Source: Thermoclostridium sp. (GTDB taxonomy: Bacteria > Bacillota > Clostridia > DSM-8532). Taken from it: a DNA stretch of 37,217 bases. The notes beneath the pieces are model-generated. The model was given only the letters and a program-made list of their open reading frames with translations. It was not told the origin of the DNA and searched no databases. The position numbers and the translations under genes were made by a program. This document shows positions 22,997-31,599 of this stretch, piece after piece; within the stretch, counting starts at the first letter, position 1; each line of letters opens with the position of its first letter. The stretch is from contig JAGOJH010000022.1 in assembly GCA_017995215.1 (NCBI GenBank), positions 1 through 37,217 of the forward strand, in the 5' to 3' direction.

Positions 22997-24022
22997 ATGA
23001 AAAAACGGATAATAATTCTTATAACCATCATTCTTGCTGTATCCTTCATGACAGGCTGTAACAAAAGAACCGCTGAAACTGACGTAGAGCCCCAAACAAC
23101 GCCTGCAGTAAACACGGTTGCTCCCACAGAAGCTGTTGGACCCGAGGCGAAGGTGACCTATGACAAACCCAAGGTGTTTATGACCTCCGACATCAGCACG
23201 GAAGGCTTAATGGCTGTTTATGAAGCACTCGGGCGCCCGGCGGAAGGGAAAACGGCCATAAAGCTGCACTTTGGAGAGCCTGGAAACAAAAACTATATTT
23301 CACCGGATTTGTTGAAGGATCTGGTCATTGCCGTGGACGGGACCTTCACTGACAGCAATACATATTACGGCGGCAAGCGCATGCAAACTGCCGCACATTT
23401 GCAGGCTGCTGAGGATCACGGGTTTACTTATGCACCGGTAGATATCCTTGATGCAGATGGTGAGATCATGCTTCCAATTACCGGTGGAAAGCGTTTGACG
23501 GAAGTTCCTGTTGGCTCCCATTACGAAAACTATGACTTCATCATTTCCATTGCCCATTTTAAAGGTCATGAGATGGCGGGCTTTGGGGGAACCTTTAAAA
23601 ACCTTGCCGTGGGTATAGCCTCTGTGAACGGAAAGAAGGCTATCCATGCCGAACCCGGGGGTGGAATGTTCTCGACACAGGGGGAGGCCTTCCTGGAAAA
23701 AATCGTCGAGGTCACCAAAGCAATTCTGGAGGACAAGGGCGACAAAATGGTCTTTATCAATGTCATGAACAACCTTTCCGTAGACTGCGACTGTGCTTCC
23801 AGTCCTGCCAAACCCAAAATGTCGGATATCGGAATTCTTGCTTCTCTGGACCCTGTTGCGCTGGATCAAGCCAGTGTAGACTTGGTCTTTGCAGCACCGG
23901 AAAGTGAGAGCAAGGATCTGGTTAACAGAATAAAATGGAAACAGGGGCAGAATCTGCTGGACTATGCACAGGAGCTTGGCCTCGGAAGCAAGGAATATGA
24001 ATTGGTGAAGCTGGATGATTGA
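22997..24022 (+). CDS. DUF362-domain lipoprotein
   Basis: The 341-residue protein has a lipoprotein signal peptide ending in the lipobox MTGC (Cys21) and a Thr/Pro-rich linker. From about residue 55 it has the DUF362 fold, recognised by KLHFGEPGNKNY, the IVAVDGTFTDSNT-like region, ISIAHFKGHEMAGFGG and the C-terminal SLDPVALDQASVDLV. DUF362 proteins often carry extra ferredoxin domains; here only a CDC pair (DCDCASS) is present, so an Fe-S role is not shown. The biochemical function of the family is unknown. It overlaps the following permease gene by eight bases, so the two are probably one unit, with this protein outside the membrane. Confidence 0.85.
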   Translation: MKKRIIILITIILAVSFMTGCNKRTAETDVEPQTTPAVNTVAPTEAVGPEAKVTYDKPKVFMTSDISTEGLMAVYEALGRPAEGKTAIKLHFGEPGNKNYISPDLLKDLVIAVDGTFTDSNTYYGGKRMQTAAHLQAAEDHGFTYAPVDILDADGEIMLPITGGKRLTEVPVGSHYENYDFIISIAHFKGHEMAGFGGTFKNLAVGIASVNGKKAIHAEPGGGMFSTQGEAFLEKIVEVTKAILEDKGDKMVFINVMNNLSVDCDCASSPAKPKMSDIGILASLDPVALDQASVDLVFAAPESESKDLVNRIKWKQGQNLLDYAQELGLGSKEYELVKLDD

Positions 24023-24917
24023 TGCAATCCGGCGTGAACTCATCTATTTCTGGTATTACTTCACCATCCAGTTTGATCAGATTTTTCGGTATTGGGCGTT
24101 GGGTATTGTATTAGGCTCGGTGATTTCCGTATTCGGAAAGGATAAAATCCACAGGCTTTTTTCTGCATTGCAGGAAAAACGTCTGGGAGTATTGGGGGTT
24201 ATACCGGCAAGCCTGATTGGAATTGCCTCTCCTTTGTGTATGTATGGAACCATTCCCATCGCTGCATCCTTCTCTGAAAAAGGCATGAGGGATGACTGGC
24301 TGGCGGCCTTCATGATGAGTTCGATTTTATTGAACCCGCAATTGATGATCTACAGTGCAGCCCTTGGAACCACAGCCCTGCTCATACGGTTTGTCTCCTG
24401 CTTTTTATGTGGCATAGCAGCGGGGCTGTGTGTCCGGTTCATCTACAGGAAAAAAAGCTTCTTCAATTTTTCTGGCTTTACACAACAGACCAATCGAGAC
24501 ACGGATCCCAATCTTCTTTTACGCCTTCTGAAGAACATCTGGAGAAATGTCAGGGCAACCGGCCTTTACTTTATAGCCGGTATTGTGCTGTCTGCACTGT
24601 TTCAGCAATATGTGCCCGCCGATGCCTTTGCTTCAATTTTTGGCAGCCAAAGGGGCTTTGGAGTTCTAATGGCGGCCACAATAGGAGTGCCGCTGTATGT
24701 TTGCGGCGGCGGAACGATTCCCTTGCTGGCAGATTGGCTGCAGTCCGGCATGAGCATGGGAGCAGCCGCAGCTTTCATGATTACCGGGCCTGCCACGAAG
24801 ATCACAAACCTCGGAGCGGTTAAAATAGTTTTAGGCGCAAAACGCTTTGCACTATACATTCTTTTTTCAATTCTCTTTGCGCTGGTAACAGGGCTGTTGG
24901 TCGATTTTTTTCTTTAA
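24015..24917 (+). CDS. Predicted permease, ArsP/DUF318 family
   Basis: The 300-residue protein has about eight transmembrane segments in two similar halves. Family hallmarks are GIASPLCMYGTIPIAASF with its buried Cys, SSILLNPQLMIYSAALG, and the second-half counterpart PLYVCGGGTIPLLADWLQ followed by FMITGPATKITNLGAV. Characterised relatives (ArsP) export trivalent organoarsenicals, but most members are uncharacterised, so the substrate is open. The start overlaps the end of the DUF362 gene by eight bases. It converges on the radical SAM gene with only 25 bp between stops and no clear terminator. Confidence 0.85.
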   Translation: MIDAIRRELIYFWYYFTIQFDQIFRYWALGIVLGSVISVFGKDKIHRLFSALQEKRLGVLGVIPASLIGIASPLCMYGTIPIAASFSEKGMRDDWLAAFMMSSILLNPQLMIYSAALGTTALLIRFVSCFLCGIAAGLCVRFIYRKKSFFNFSGFTQQTNRDTDPNLLLRLLKNIWRNVRATGLYFIAGIVLSALFQQYVPADAFASIFGSQRGFGVLMAATIGVPLYVCGGGTIPLLADWLQSGMSMGAAAAFMITGPATKITNLGAVKIVLGAKRFALYILFSILFALVTGLLVDFFL

Positions 24918-24942: not shown

Positions 24943-26067
24943 TCACTCTTTCTTTGGAAGGTGATCATCCACAAACGAAACAAGAGGATAAGCGTTATTA
25001 TAATGCTTTTGAATGAACATGGGGCTTTTTTTGCGATAAAGCCTTTCAGCCAGCCTGTCGGCGATGGGAATCAACAGCTGCTCGTGAGCGCAAACCAGCG
25101 GGGAGACAACTTCAGGGAAGCCTGTGGTTTGTTTGTTTAAGCAGCTGCAATGATGATTGCAGCGGTATTTTAGCGCACAGTCTTTGCACTCATCCTTCCT
25201 GTTTTTTGCCCTCTCATAAAGGATATCCCGATTGACCGTATCCAGACCGGCCCATACATCACCTATTTTATACTGTGGATCATCCACAAATTGAACACAG
25301 GGATAAAGGATACCATCGCTGCTGACAGAGATTTGGTGTTTTCCCAGCTCACATTGCTCGCTGCAATAAGCGTCGCCATGGACATGCGTTTTTATTTTTT
25401 CGTCAAAGGGGCTGAAGTAAAATTTATTTTCCTTAAGGGTCCAGTCATAATACAGCTCTGCAAGGCGCTGATATTGCTTGCGAAGCCTTGCAAAGTCATT
25501 TTCGGACCATACGGTCATGGAGTTCAATGTTGTGATAATATACCGAAATTTCTTCCGTGCCAGGTATTCAACAGAATCAGCAAAAAAATCTACCGTGTCC
25601 GGATTAAGGGTCAACATGACCGGAGTGTATGGGCTTGCTTCCAACAACAGATCGACGATACTGTTCAGCCTGTCGAAAGTCCCGTTTCCAGCCCTATCTT
25701 TCCGGTGCATATCGTGGCTTTCATGGATTCCGTCATGGCTGATGGTGATAAAGATACCATTTTGCTGCGCGAAATGAATAAAATCCTGATCCAACAGAAG
25801 CCCATTGGTGGTCAGCTTAAACATATAACGCACACCCTCGTGCTGATGCCTCCATTGACAGTATGCAACCAGTTCGCAGATGAAATCCTTCCTCAGAAGA
25901 GGTTCTCCGCCATAAAACATAATACCGGTCAGAGGATCCCCGGCGCAGGTCAAATCTGCTGCTTTTCTTGCGATTTCCAGGGACATGTTCATTGGTGTAC
26001 CCTTATGAACGTAACAGTAATCACAGTCCATATTGCATTCATTCGTCAGATGAAGCGTATAATGCAT
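24943..26067 (-). CDS. Radical SAM/SPASM-domain protein, probable peptide or protein maturase
   Basis: The 374-residue enzyme has the radical SAM CxxxCxxC motif as Cys11, Cys15, Cys18 (CNMDCDYC), a GGEP motif (FYGGEPLL) and the TTNGLLL segment. The C-terminus carries the full seven-Cys SPASM pattern: C-x12-G-x4-C (QCELG...YPC), C-x2-C-x5-C-x3-C (CKDCALKYRCNHHC) and a final Cys (LVCAHE). It therefore should hold three [4Fe-4S] clusters. SPASM enzymes modify peptide or protein side chains, such as sactionine, other cross-link or formylglycine formation. It lies 13 bases after a lipoprotein-like gene on the same strand. I could not place it in a named subfamily, so substrate and chemistry are inference. 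Confidence 0.9.
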   Translation of the reverse strand: MHYTLHLTNECNMDCDYCYVHKGTPMNMSLEIARKAADLTCAGDPLTGIMFYGGEPLLRKDFICELVAYCQWRHQHEGVRYMFKLTTNGLLLDQDFIHFAQQNGIFITISHDGIHESHDMHRKDRAGNGTFDRLNSIVDLLLEASPYTPVMLTLNPDTVDFFADSVEYLARKKFRYIITTLNSMTVWSENDFARLRKQYQRLAELYYDWTLKENKFYFSPFDEKIKTHVHGDAYCSEQCELGKHQISVSSDGILYPCVQFVDDPQYKIGDVWAGLDTVNRDILYERAKNRKDECKDCALKYRCNHHCSCLNKQTTGFPEVVSPLVCAHEQLLIPIADRLAERLYRKKSPMFIQKHYNNAYPLVSFVDDHLPKKE

Positions 26068-26079
26068 GAAAACTCCTTG

Positions 26080-26688
26080 TTAAATCACGCCCTGCGTCTT
26101 CAGCCAATCCAGGAAGGTTGTGATCTGGAGCTTCAAATCCTCTTCGCTGTATGCTTCATGGAAGATACCAACCTTCAGCTCGCCCGATTCTGCCATTAGC
26201 GTTTCATTTGTTATGTTCAGACTGGCAAGGGAATCTTCATTTTGTTTCAGCCATTCGTCATAATCCTCCCGGTTCAGGTACTCAAACCCAACCTTCTTGT
26301 CGGCGTCAAGCCCATCCAGAGTGACTTTATAGGGAACCTGCTCCAACGTTGCTTCACTGCTGCCCTTCTTAAAGGCATTCATCGGAACAACCAGATCCAA
26401 AGTGTCTGTGGTTTCCTTCAGAGAAATGGAATGCTCCTGAAGTGCATTCTGAATGATGGAATAAACTTGCTGCTCCGTAAGGGGTTCAGGAGCAAGGGGT
26501 ACCCCCGCGGTACGGAAATTATCACCGCAGCCTGACAGCAATGCTGCAAAAGCGCCGGTGGTCAGCAAACCCGCTGCAAAACGGCTCTTCCACCGGGATG
26601 GCAGGGTTGATCGAAGGCCGATACTGTTAAATTCCTCCAAGCGTGGGTAAAATGGAGCCTTGTATTTTTTCACAATCATTTTATTCAT
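26080..26688 (-). CDS. Lipoprotein-like protein, possible substrate of the radical SAM enzyme
   Basis: The 202-residue protein has an unusual N-terminus. About 36 polar and basic residues (MNKMIVKKYKAPFYPRLEEF onward) precede a hydrophobic stretch and a lipobox-like LLSGC with Cys54, much later than in ordinary lipoproteins. The rest (about 55-202) is acidic, with one Cys in total, and matches nothing I recognise. I chose 26688 because AAGGAG lies 11 bases upstream; a longer frame to 26760 has none. The operon with a SPASM enzyme suggests the long leader could be a recognition region and the protein a modified target, but the near absence of Cys rules out a thioether-rich product. It may instead be an ordinary lipoprotein partner. 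Confidence 0.7.
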   Translation of the reverse strand: MNKMIVKKYKAPFYPRLEEFNSIGLRSTLPSRWKSRFAAGLLTTGAFAALLSGCGDNFRTAGVPLAPEPLTEQQVYSIIQNALQEHSISLKETTDTLDLVVPMNAFKKGSSEATLEQVPYKVTLDGLDADKKVGFEYLNREDYDEWLKQNEDSLASLNITNETLMAESGELKVGIFHEAYSEEDLKLQITTFLDWLKTQGVI

Positions 26689-26731
26689 GAAAAAAGAAAC
26701 TCCTTTCCGGTATTGTGTATATTCTAATACC

Positions 26732-26760
26732 ATTATGCTACAAAATACTGTTCCATACAA
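26732..26760 (-). promoter_or_regulatory. Promoter for the lipoprotein-radical SAM operon
   Basis: On the minus strand TTGTAT (26760-26755) and CATAAT (26737-26732) are separated by 17 bp, about 45 bp upstream of the start codon. Confidence 0.6.
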
Positions 26761-26984
26761 GCATGATATGGGTATGACTCAACCGCTGCCGCAAATGTTC
26801 CTTATCCGGACGAAGGGCAAAAATTTTTCCTGATGCTGATAAAGCCTAAGATATAGAAGGTCATTTGATAACAACATTTGTTCATATTTCTCTTGAAATA
26901 GGACATACAGCTGTCACAAAAATGTGGTAGGATATACTTGCAGATAAGACTTCTGCAAATCTAAATTCATTGGGGGTCAAACAG

Positions 26985-28073
26985 ATGACACAGTATTATG
27001 TGCAGGATATCGCAGGTAATTATTTAAAGAATGTTGTGGATACTCCAACTCAATTGAAAGCAGACAAGTACTTTTTGCATGGCGCAGATGAAGAAGAGCT
27101 GCAAAGCGGTTACTTCGAACTGCAGTCTGTTATCAAAAGCCTGTATAAGGATATTATGTTAAGCCCGAAAGAATTTGACATGCTGATGAAGGAAAATACA
27201 GTACCAAATGCTAAAAATGCCGAATACACGCAAAGCCATGCCAGCTTCCTTCGGGTCCCTAATCTTTTGCTGCTATTGGGATACAAAGGGGAACTGCAAT
27301 CAGACATGACCATTACAATTCACGGGAATACCTTTCTCAATGGTGCAAAGGAATTGAAAATTACTAAACCACAGTTTTTTTTGAAGAAGCTTGAAGATTA
27401 TGGATTTGAAACGGAAGGAGCATCAAAGACAATACAGGCGGGTGACATACTCAAGATAAGCTATCCGCAAAACCGTTTTATGCTGACAGCCCTGACATCC
27501 ATGGCCGAATCCATGATGAACATCCTTGGAAATGATCTGAAAAAGCAAAAGAATCATTTCTATATGATGGATTATCGGTTAATGGAAAGTGAAAAACCGA
27601 AAGAACCGAAATTGACCTTTGAACATGTGCATCATGCATTAACGGATGAACAGAAAAAGCTTGCGATGAGCTTAAATCACTTTATTGTCCAATATGCAAA
27701 GCCTGTTGTCAGAATGGGCGGTCTCAGCCGGAATGATTGGACTTGCGCATATCAGCTGAATTCAAATAAAAGAGTTATTCTATCCTTAATCGTCAAACAG
27801 GACGAATTATCGGTGAAATTGAATCTGGAGCATATTCGCCAATACATCGACAGCGTGCAGCAATATCCCAAAGAGATCGGAGAGGCAATCAAATCGGGCG
27901 GATGGGAATGCGGTCATTGTCACAGTAACTGTGCAGGCGCGTTTACTTTCGAATACGAGGGGAAGACATATAACAAATGCCGTTGTGGTTCCTTTGAATT
28001 CGCTCATTTAAAAGATGATACGCTACATTACTATATAGAACTGTTAGAAAAGGAAATAAAAGCCTGGGCATAA
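26985..28073 (+). CDS. Hypothetical protein with C-terminal Cys-rich (zinc-ribbon-like) region
   Basis: The 362-residue cytoplasmic protein has no signal peptide or membrane helix. I do not recognise its N-terminal 200 residues. The C-terminal half has NDWTCAYQLNSNKRVILSLI and VKLNLEHIRQY, then a CGHC...C...CRC cluster (WECGHCHSNCAGAF, NKCRCGSFEF) that could bind a metal. The ATG at 26985 follows GGGGGT by eight bases; a TTG at 26970 is also in frame but less likely. A possible promoter is CTGTCA (26911) with TATACT (26933). A terminator follows directly, so it is probably transcribed alone. No function is proposed. Confidence 0.75.
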   Translation: MTQYYVQDIAGNYLKNVVDTPTQLKADKYFLHGADEEELQSGYFELQSVIKSLYKDIMLSPKEFDMLMKENTVPNAKNAEYTQSHASFLRVPNLLLLLGYKGELQSDMTITIHGNTFLNGAKELKITKPQFFLKKLEDYGFETEGASKTIQAGDILKISYPQNRFMLTALTSMAESMMNILGNDLKKQKNHFYMMDYRLMESEKPKEPKLTFEHVHHALTDEQKKLAMSLNHFIVQYAKPVVRMGGLSRNDWTCAYQLNSNKRVILSLIVKQDELSVKLNLEHIRQYIDSVQQYPKEIGEAIKSGGWECGHCHSNCAGAFTFEYEGKTYNKCRCGSFEFAHLKDDTLHYYIELLEKEIKAWA

Positions 28074-28116: not shown

Positions 28117-28209
28117 AAATACAATTAAATGCCAAACTCGAGATAAGCCGTTGTTATAAACTGCGTTCACCGCAGTATATTATATGGAATGCTTTTAAGG
28201 GTTGGTTCG

Positions 28210-29280
28210 ATGAAAAATGAGGGTGTAACTACCTTCAAGGTGGCTGCAGTTTACATCGGCACAATTGTGGGCGCGGGCTTTGCCACTGGCCAGGAGGTAC
28301 TTCAGTTCTTCAACCGGTTTGGCATCTGGGGCCTGGGGGGGTTGGCGGTCGCAACCATCCTGTTTATCGTTTTCGGGTATATCATCATGGACCTGGGCAG
28401 GGTGCTCAATGCCCGATCCCATCTGGAGGTTATCCGGTACTCCGGGGGAAATATCCTGGGCACGTTTATCGACATTGTGATCACAATTTTCTTATTTGGG
28501 TCTTTAACTGCGATGATTGCAGGAACGGGAGCCCTTTTTGAACAGCAACTGAAACTGTCACCCCTGCTGGGCAGCACTTTTATGGTAGTCATCACCGTGT
28601 TAACGGTTCTTACAGGAATTGATGGTGTGATCAATTCCATCAGTTGCGTTGTGCCATTTCTGTTAACATCAGTATTGGGAATCAGCGCTTATTCTGTCAT
28701 CAATCATTCCCTGAACCTGGAGGTTATACCCGTGATTCAGGGGCACAGCGGAATTGTCAACCACTGGCTTGCAGCAGCTGTTTTGTATGTTTCCTATAAC
28801 ACGGTTATTTCAGTAGCCGTTCTGGGGCCTTTGGGAATGAACGCACGAAGCAAAAAAGCTGTTTGGAATGGCGCCCTGCTGGGTGGGTTGGGTCTTGGGG
28901 CCGGAGCCATGATGATTTACATGGCACTGGCAAGCCAGAGCACACAGATAGAAAACCTCGAAGTGCCGATGATCTATATCGCCGGAGAAATAGCCCCGAT
29001 TATTCAAATTTTGTATGCTGTTATTTTAATCGCAGAAATATATACAACAGCAGTGGGAGCATTGTTTGGCTTTTCGTCCAGAGTGATTGGCATGCAAAAA
29101 AAGCCGCGAACAGGAAAGATTTTAGTGGTACTCACCGCAGCAGCTGCTTTACTTGCAAGCAGGCTGGGCTTTTCAATTCTGGTCAGATATCTTTATCCAT
29201 TGGTAGGATATTGCGGTGTAGCCCTGCTGGGCGCATTGGTTATCACGACCCTAAAAGAAAACAAATCATTACTCTTATAG
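28210..29280 (+). CDS. ykvI: YkvI-family membrane transporter
   Basis: The 356-residue protein has about ten transmembrane segments and starts with the family hallmark YIGTIVGAGFATGQEVLQFF, where the Gly-rich unwound helix recalls LeuT-fold transporters. The middle holds GIDGVINSISCVVPFLL and the end RYLYPLVGYCG. YkvI proteins are widespread in Bacillota and have no proven substrate. I chose the ATG at 28210, preceded by AAGGG nine bases upstream; the in-frame ATG at 28189 lacks a site and would add seven unconserved residues. No terminator is evident after the gene. Confidence 0.88.
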   Translation: MKNEGVTTFKVAAVYIGTIVGAGFATGQEVLQFFNRFGIWGLGGLAVATILFIVFGYIIMDLGRVLNARSHLEVIRYSGGNILGTFIDIVITIFLFGSLTAMIAGTGALFEQQLKLSPLLGSTFMVVITVLTVLTGIDGVINSISCVVPFLLTSVLGISAYSVINHSLNLEVIPVIQGHSGIVNHWLAAAVLYVSYNTVISVAVLGPLGMNARSKKAVWNGALLGGLGLGAGAMMIYMALASQSTQIENLEVPMIYIAGEIAPIIQILYAVILIAEIYTTAVGALFGFSSRVIGMQKKPRTGKILVVLTAAAALLASRLGFSILVRYLYPLVGYCGVALLGALVITTLKENKSLLL

Positions 29281-29874: not shown

Positions 29875-31599
29875 CTAAGCTTGATAAATAATTTCCGGCA
29901 TGACACCCAGTACTTCAGACCAGCCAAGATCATTTTTCCCAGCAAGATGATAGCTGTCATTGACCAAATCAGTTCTGTTCTTCAGTGGACTATTGGCTGC
30001 CAATACACCGAAATTGGGGTTGGCCGGGTCCAGACTGACAAAATCGCCGGAACTTACCGTAACCCCCAGGTTCCACGAGTTTGTATTTTGTATTGAGTTT
30101 CCATATAACGTATCCATCGTTCCACCGGCATAGCTTAAACAGTTTTGCACCAATATTTGTTCTTCACCATAAGCAGATACATCGGAAAAGAAATTTCGGT
30201 TTAAATTGCCAACCCCGGTGCAATGAATGAAAGCTGTTTCCAAAGCCTGATTATTTGTATAGCCCATCACTCGGGCATAAGCGGATAAACACCCGATGGC
30301 CTTGCCGACAGCACCGCCATCAACTACCGTATCCGCGCGGATACCATTCCCCGGACCCATCTTAAAGTTCATACCGTCGCCCTGTACAGAGGGATTCCCA
30401 ACCAGAGCCTTCTCAGCGGTCCTGTTTCTGGCTCCCTGATATTGGGATTCAGTTCTGCCTGAATAAAATGCTTTGCAGTGATATAGGCTGGCTATGTTTG
30501 CTCTGAACATATCAAATCCGTCATCGCTGTTCGCATGGGCAGTACATTTTATGTAGTGATTTTCAACGCCTTCGTTTTCGAATCCGTCCGCGCTGCCCCC
30601 GGGAGAATCTCCAAACAGCATGGAGTCAAAATCGTAATTATACGCAGAAGTGCAGCCGATGAATTGATTGAACGAAGCAGCCTCACCGGTTGTATTGCCG
30701 GATACATCAGAACAAAGCATCCCCACGTCCGCACCGTCAATGGCAGCGCAATTGATAATCATGCTGTAATTGCACTGAGGGCCTAAGTCAATTCCGAAAT
30801 ACGGTGAATTCACCGAATTGAGGTTCATGACGATACAGTAGGGGGCATTGACATAAATATTTGGTGTTCGGTTGTTCTTGGGGATAGCAGTACCATTTGC
30901 ATTCACCACACGCCGGTTGATTCCGTTAATCGACACATCTCCGTCATAGCCCACAAGCCAGGTTGTACTCTTGTTTAAATTCACCGCTTCTGTATAGGTT
31001 CCGCCCTTTATAAAAATAATGTCATGGCGGTTGTTCTGTGCCAAAGCGATAGCCGCAGTAATGGTTCGTTTTGCGGTTCCCGGGGTTAAGCCGTCTGCAT
31101 CATTATTGCCCTCTTGAGAATTAACATAATATTTGTTTCCGAAATCGATCACCAGGTTGGAAAACAAGGGGATGTTCAAGTTAACCCGGGTTTGTGATAT
31201 TAACAGAGATACATCATTTTTCACATCATTTGCAAAGGTTAAAATATCAGTCGTTTCATTTGTACCTGTATCTATATCATCAATTTGCGCCTTCAACATT
31301 TGAATGTTGTCTACCAGTACATTGTAATCATACGCCGTAAAACGTCGGGCTACTTCAGTATTGGCGGGCCAAGGAAGAGGGGGGCCTTCAAAACCACGGG
31401 TTACCAAACTCAACACATTACCGCTTTTTGCACCATAGAAAATGGTTTCAGCAGCATTACCGGATCCTACCACTGCGAGATTTGGGGCATCCGGCAGTAC
31501 TGAACCGTTTGCGACGGTAATGGAAGTGGCTGCAGCCGTTACTGTTGCCGTCAGTACTGTTGCCGGACCATTGATATTCCCTTTATACATGGTTTCCAT
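29875..31599 (-). CDS. Right-handed beta-helix, pectate-lyase-like protein with phage-tail-type N-terminus
   Basis: The 574-residue protein has no signal peptide. Residues 1-110 (TVTAAATSITVANGS, AETIFYGAKSGNVLSLVTRG, then AYDYNVLVDNIQML) resemble the N-termini of phage tail or baseplate-associated proteins. From about residue 145 (FGNKYYVNSQEG, DADGLTPGTAKRTITAAI) a parallel beta-helix begins, with features of family 9 pectate lyases such as ENEGVENHYIKCTAHANSDD and DDGFDMFRAN. A polysaccharide-cleaving tailspike is the best reading. A strong AGGAGG lies seven bases before the start and a terminator follows. No other phage genes are near, so it may be a leftover or a domesticated surface enzyme. 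The exact substrate is unknown. Confidence 0.8.
   Translation of the reverse strand: METMYKGNINGPATVLTATVTAAATSITVANGSVLPDAPNLAVVGSGNAAETIFYGAKSGNVLSLVTRGFEGPPLPWPANTEVARRFTAYDYNVLVDNIQMLKAQIDDIDTGTNETTDILTFANDVKNDVSLLISQTRVNLNIPLFSNLVIDFGNKYYVNSQEGNNDADGLTPGTAKRTITAAIALAQNNRHDIIFIKGGTYTEAVNLNKSTTWLVGYDGDVSINGINRRVVNANGTAIPKNNRTPNIYVNAPYCIVMNLNSVNSPYFGIDLGPQCNYSMIINCAAIDGADVGMLCSDVSGNTTGEAASFNQFIGCTSAYNYDFDSMLFGDSPGGSADGFENEGVENHYIKCTAHANSDDGFDMFRANIASLYHCKAFYSGRTESQYQGARNRTAEKALVGNPSVQGDGMNFKMGPGNGIRADTVVDGGAVGKAIGCLSAYARVMGYTNNQALETAFIHCTGVGNLNRNFFSDVSAYGEEQILVQNCLSYAGGTMDTLYGNSIQNTNSWNLGVTVSSGDFVSLDPANPNFGVLAANSPLKNRTDLVNDSYHLAGKNDLGWSEVLGVMPEIIYQA

Follow-up and report, generated by a model that had tools for sequence, protein, structure and literature searches.

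Most known substrates of SPASM enzymes are short peptides, which are trimmed and then released. The anaerobic sulfatase-maturating enzyme (TIGR03942; structure 4k37) is a SPASM enzyme that acts on a whole exported protein; its substrates are not known to carry a dedicated leader. QhpD, the maturase of quinohemoprotein amine dehydrogenase, belongs to the SPASM enzymes as well and introduces cross-links into a protein subunit. PapB makes Cys-Asp/Glu thioethers; the peptide PapA contains Cys-X3-Asp/Glu motifs (PMC9413430). The SCIFF maturase CteB carries an N-terminal RRE, and its auxiliary cluster I (Aux I) has an open site that is bound by a substrate Cys, the function of this cluster being described as not clear; in SkfB and PqqE a CxC provides the Aux I ligand pair (PMC6231123). 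The precursor TvgA, on which the SPASM-type enzyme TvgB acts, has TVGG repeats, belongs to a five-gene cluster and is not an exported lipoprotein (PMC9062424). In the family TIGR04134 (lipo_with_rSAM) a putative lipoprotein is paired with a radical SAM partner enzyme.

Here we describe a radical SAM/SPASM enzyme that is encoded next to an exported lipoprotein precursor (in the following, the cargo) on a stretch of 37,217 nucleotides from Thermoclostridium sp., referred to as the window. The pair is one case of a conserved and widespread two-gene module. Judged from the sequences, its enzyme would behave as a maturase that is guided by a leader and acts on proteins destined for export. That the enzyme modifies the cargo is very probable and that the leader guides the enzyme is probable; for the module as a whole, leader-guided modification of an exported protein by the radical SAM/SPASM enzyme is the explanation that we favour and regard as moderately likely.

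With PapB the enzyme shares the SPASM architecture and a leader-bearing ribosomal substrate, but its cargo is an exported protein without the motifs of PapA. With CteB it shares two auxiliary clusters, whereas its substrate would not be a small Cys-rich peptide. As in the maturation of sulfatases the putative substrate is a whole exported protein; however, there is no sulfatase near the window pair. QhpD likewise is a SPASM enzyme acting on a protein, but the companion genes of the QhpD system are not seen here. TvgA, with its short Gly-containing repeats, resembles the short cargos described below. The pairing of a radical SAM enzyme with a putative lipoprotein recalls TIGR04134, yet none of ten cargos matched this NCBIfam model at E up to 1 (up to 0.1 for the window cargo).

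The gene pair in the window

Both genes lie on the minus strand. The cargo gene (26080..26688; 609 bases including the stop codon, ATG at 26688) encodes 202 amino acids and is followed by the enzyme gene (24943..26067; 1125 bases, ATG at 26067) for 374 amino acids. Both have good Shine-Dalgarno sites: AAAGGAG at 26700..26706 for the cargo gene, and for the enzyme gene a site within the spacer CAAGGAGTTTTC (26068..26079, minus strand). The original prediction had recognized the upstream protein of 202 residues; the 13 bases it gave for the gap are 12, counted from the stop codon to the ATG of the enzyme, and its far end at 26760 is the limit of the open reading frame, at a TTG that lies 72 bases past the likely start.

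The enzyme contains the predicted CxxxCxxC of the radical SAM cluster (C11, C15 and C18 in residues 11-18; 26014..26037, minus strand) and a full seven-Cys SPASM pattern in residues 239-326 (25090..25353, minus strand), C239-x17-C257 (with G-x4-C), C294-x2-C297-x5-C303-x3-C307 and C326, to which an eighth Cys, C309 in a CxC, can be added. It thus belongs to the radical SAM superfamily and its SPASM branch; the Pfam matches to Radical_SAM (2.4e-15) and SPASM (8.3e-5) are both above the gathering score. By analogy with the anaerobic sulfatase-maturating enzyme, SkfB and PqqE (PMC6231123), the putative ligands of Aux I are C239, C257, C307 and C309, and those of Aux II are C294, C297, C303 and C326. 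Many RiPP maturation systems, though not all, bind the leader by an RRE. Since the enzyme begins only 10 residues before CxxxCxxC, it has no fused N-terminal RRE. A PqqD-like domain, which could act as an RRE in trans, is not common to the pair-bearing genomes: three of seven have one, unfused to the enzyme, and the other four gave none.

The cargo begins with a leader (residues 1-35, MNKMIVKKYKAPFYPRLEEFNSIGLRSTLPSRWKS; 26584..26688, minus strand) showing the family motif YxxPxYP...LLxxLPxRW. There follow a hydrophobic segment (residues 36-53; 26530..26583, minus strand) with the lipobox LLSG ahead of Cys54 (26527..26529, minus strand), the predicted lipid-attachment Cys, then the residues GDNF, the linker RTAGVPLAPEP (residues 59-69; 26482..26514, minus strand), and a globular domain (residues 70-202; 26083..26481, minus strand) that includes a conserved C-terminal helix (182-198). 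A lipobox Cys at the end of a hydrophobic segment gives the cargo the features of a bacterial lipoprotein. The leader, put at about 36 residues before, contains eight Lys/Arg versus two Asp/Glu; the mature part, with 27 Asp/Glu versus 12 Lys/Arg, is acidic as predicted, and Cys54 is indeed the only Cys of the protein.

Relationship of the enzyme to catalogued families

The best NCBIfam match of the enzyme is PapB (NF047865), with 216 bits against a cut-off of 340. PapB is also the top family for six relatives, so that the seven enzymes scanned score between 161 and 225 bits, all below this cut-off. The next-nearest catalogued families are the nif11 and SCIFF maturases; scores for the SCIFF maturase (TIGR03974; 143 bits, cut-off 425), QhpD (TIGR03906; 134 bits, cut-off 453) and the anaerobic sulfatase maturase (105 bits, cut-off 349) are likewise too low, and among the best 25 families listed there is none whose cut-off is reached. 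The solved structure nearest by sequence is that of CteB (5wgg; E 5e-32).

Recurrence of the pair

From a scan of GTDB contigs the best 80 enzyme loci were taken. According to their record titles, mostly of metagenome-assembled genomes (MAGs), they come from Bacillota, Bacteroidota, Planctomycetota, Hydrogenedentes, Deltaproteobacteria, Lentisphaeria, Kiritimatiellae, Sumerlaeota, Armatimonadota and others. A leader-bearing cargo adjoins the enzyme in 74 of the 80, a count from a partner set for which a profile was built iteratively from the genes around the enzyme, so that it favours finding partners there. Three loci are cut off at a contig edge, and three (L053, L072 and L079) have no cargo, one of these being a truncated enzyme gene. 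The cargo gene is usually located directly upstream of the enzyme gene, sometimes directly downstream, and often there are two or three copies. As most of the related loci also have the pair, its occurrence in the window is not due to chance.

When whole genomes were searched with the profile of the cargo, an approach free of the bias mentioned, long cargos were found in nine of 391 genomes of the window's class. Close homologues of the enzyme are present in 16 of the 391, and all nine cargo genomes are among these 16 (hypergeometric 2e-14, relatedness ignored). In six of the other seven (enzymes L019-L025) a short or divergent leader-bearing cargo lies beside the enzyme; in the seventh (L024) the enzyme frame is broken and no leader was recognized. 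Homologues regularly lacking the partner, which the original prediction had named as evidence against it, were therefore not encountered, and its suggestion that a whole lipoprotein is the substrate appears likely from the comparison, the cargo being a regular partner with a conserved leader. A few cargos are away from an enzyme: L119, which is on another contig, and probably L114, which is near a contig start. In the window's genus, further radical SAM genes (L005-L010) have no cargo next to them.

Distances between enzymes and between mature cargos are correlated (Mantel r 0.80 for 50 pairs, 0 of 2000 permutations), as is expected of a co-inherited pair. With the gene of a putative maturase next to that of a putative substrate, whose leader is conserved and can be separated from the rest, the module is arranged like a RiPP precursor/maturase pair. 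A third conserved gene is not apparent at the loci; the gene clusters considered as a third partner looked like opposite-strand frames of the two genes or like local synteny. Our literature search, whose coverage left out most subscription papers, returned no paper on the pair.

Cargo types

In long cargos of approximately 200-300 amino acids, some longer, the leader is followed by a hydrophobic segment, in most cases with a lipobox, by a Gly-rich stretch and by a folded domain that has LRxQVxDFxxWLKxQGVI at its end. Most of them have an additional conserved Cys in the motif HGxGxGSxGC directly after the lipobox. Short cargos (66-357 amino acids) are acidic, in most cases give no match to the long domain and show the repeat [LT]xG[DE]VA[IV]; [LT]xG occurs 98 times in them compared with a mean of 37 and a maximum of 55 in shuffled sequences. 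The cargos L103, L104, L090 and L095, encoded downstream of the enzyme, lack a lipobox, combine a YPK leader with hydrophobic segments that come further on, and apparently form a third type. In L074, L075 and L080 two HxGGxG...LTEQEA units are found within one cargo protein.

For the cargos no NCBIfam or Pfam model is above its cut-off, a PDB profile search with the cargo gave nothing under 0.4, and Foldseek with two cargo models gave nothing under E 0.1. The best VIA-align score (Z 6.0) is an ordinary value, from which neither a known fold nor a new one follows.

Proposed mechanism

We propose that the cargo is synthesized with its N-terminal leader fused ahead of an ordinary lipoprotein signal peptide and that, still in the cytosol, the leader would be recognized by the adjacent radical SAM/SPASM enzyme, which would then alter the cargo. 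The site would most likely be in a flexible Gly-containing segment between lipobox and folded domain, represented by RTAGVPLAPEP in the window cargo and by HGxGxGSxGC, HxGGxG or the repeated [LT]xG[DE]VA[IV] in its relatives. Export would follow, in which signal peptidase (II for the window cargo, probably I for members without a lipobox) would remove leader and signal together, the end product being a modified and usually anchored protein. Against this mechanism count the three loci without a cargo, the cargos that lie away from an enzyme, and the finding of neither a fused RRE nor, in four of seven genomes, a PqqD-like domain.

If this is true, surface proteins of full size are brought to a radical enzyme by a leader that the ordinary export machinery afterwards removes, which would extend SPASM chemistry to the cell surface; common to unrelated cargos, the leader could be used as a tag by which selected proteins are modified. 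More widely, it is about as likely as not that these enzymes are an uncatalogued radical SAM class, spread over many phyla, which modifies whole exported proteins, with a leader that stands before the Sec signal and is portable between unrelated cargos, with signal peptidase as the leader protease, and with one branch lacking Aux I.

Aux I and the cargo cysteine

Eleven enzymes (L018, L069, L072-L077, L079, L082 and L084) have lost exactly C239, C257, C307 and C309 and have kept C294, C297, C303 and C326, which by the analogy given above reads as the loss of Aux I with retention of Aux II. The loss maps to one change on the tree, on a single branch with support 100; by their titles many of the 11 are from related MAG series. 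All 17 cargo segments in the nine loci of this clade are without the Gly-Cys of HGxGxGSxGC. In the sister lineage (L051/L054) the cluster is kept and Cys cargos are present. With Aux I and the cargo Cys lost together, the clade offers a natural test of Aux I function.

These findings bear on the question whether the enzyme could be a thioether maturase of the ranthipeptide or sactipeptide type, in which case the Cys of HGxGxGSxGC would be handled by Aux I and joined to a residue close by; those members that do not have this Cys would then be derived, either using other acceptors or being degenerate. The joint loss is consistent with such a function, as are the Gly-Cys in 38 cargos from 32 loci (counted in the alignment), the CxC and the substrate-bound Aux I site known from the enzymes mentioned in the introduction, and the closeness to PapB, itself a thioether-forming enzyme, and then to the nif11 and SCIFF maturases. 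On the other side, the joint loss is one event only, the enzyme scores far below the PapB cut-off, the short cargos also lack the motif, and 20 cargo segments in 13 loci, that of the window included, have no such Cys although Aux I is kept. Because of the single event and of these 20 segments, Cys chemistry cannot be the whole story, and we consider it rather doubtful that the enzymes are thioether maturases in general. Thioether formation in the Cys-bearing members is a tentative suggestion of about the same weight. The mature part of the window cargo has no Cys after Cys54, and its product would therefore contain no thioether unless Cys54 itself were used. In excluding a thioether from the single Cys, the original prediction may thus hold for the window member, but a thioether may be formed elsewhere in the family, in which most long cargos have the extra Cys.

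The leader

In 86 non-redundant cargo segments two Pro of the leader are present in 100%, another Pro in 95% and the Trp in 92%, whereas the lipobox Cys reaches 77%. The leader precedes the signal peptide and should be discarded on export, yet it is strongly conserved, which argues for a role in the cytosol. The short cargos begin with a related leader (NYKKPLYAIG; YxPxYPKK) despite an unrelated cargo body. In ten genomes the leader profile found no kind of protein except these cargos; as the rows of the profile include them, only the absence of other proteins is informative. The genome of the window has exactly one match.

The same data speak against the explanation that there is no modification at all, that enzyme and lipoprotein share a pathway, and that the long N-terminus serves export or placement in the membrane. 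Lipoproteins are often encoded in mixed operons, which would agree with this explanation. However, an export role fits poorly with specific Pro and Trp that are invariant across phyla, with a leader found on unrelated cargos and nowhere else in the ten genomes, and with loci that show no third conserved gene. We therefore regard a shared pathway without modification as improbable.

The target region

The leader has a mean information of 2.02 bits and the Gly motif one of 2.07, compared with 0.99 for the linker that precedes the Gly motif and 2.38 for the C-terminal motif. The structure predicted for the window cargo is mostly confident in residues 70-202 and falls under 50 in residues 56-59. 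The C-terminal segment (Gln 100%, Phe 99%, Leu 97%) could on its conservation be the target itself, or another residue of the folded domain could be. In the model, however, it forms a confident helix of the domain (pLDDT above 90), and the short cargos, leader-bearing as well, do not have it; we read its conservation as structural for these reasons, which also explains it, and a target there is hardly probable. The original prediction had proposed to align leader and C-terminus in search of conserved target residues: the leader turned out to be conserved, whereas the C-terminus appears to be structural.

We place the likely target in the Gly-containing stretch because the Gly motif is as conserved as the leader and the C-terminal motif is helical. 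Since the Gly motif differs between branches, its role as target is one that we infer, and whether the Gly stretch, whose position is taken by RTAGVPLAPEP in the window cargo, is the modification site we judge to be an even question. That the lipobox Cys54 itself is the target, with the reaction regulating lipidation, is very improbable: it is the only Cys of the window cargo, but at this position 77% of the relatives have a Cys, about a quarter of the cargos thus lacking it, and L044, L060 and two L102 cargos, without a lipobox Cys, look like substrates of signal peptidase I.

Neighbouring genes

Convergent with the pair, a gene for a DUF362 lipoprotein-like protein overlaps a gene for an ArsP_1 permease (together 22997-24917, plus strand); the permease is similar to the SO_0444/SaoE efflux proteins, below the cut-offs of these families. 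On the other side of the pair, a gene at 26970-28073 (plus strand) encodes a protein of 367 amino acids that belongs to no known family and has a cluster of Cys (CGHCHSNC...CRC) at its C-terminus. In the related genome G002 (locus L002) the frame past the cargo resembles the window gene at 28189-29280, and the 367-residue protein may be absent there. Further away (29875-31599, minus strand) is encoded a protein of 574 amino acids without a Pfam match, which by reading looks repetitive and beta-helix-like, with a phage-tail-like N-terminus.
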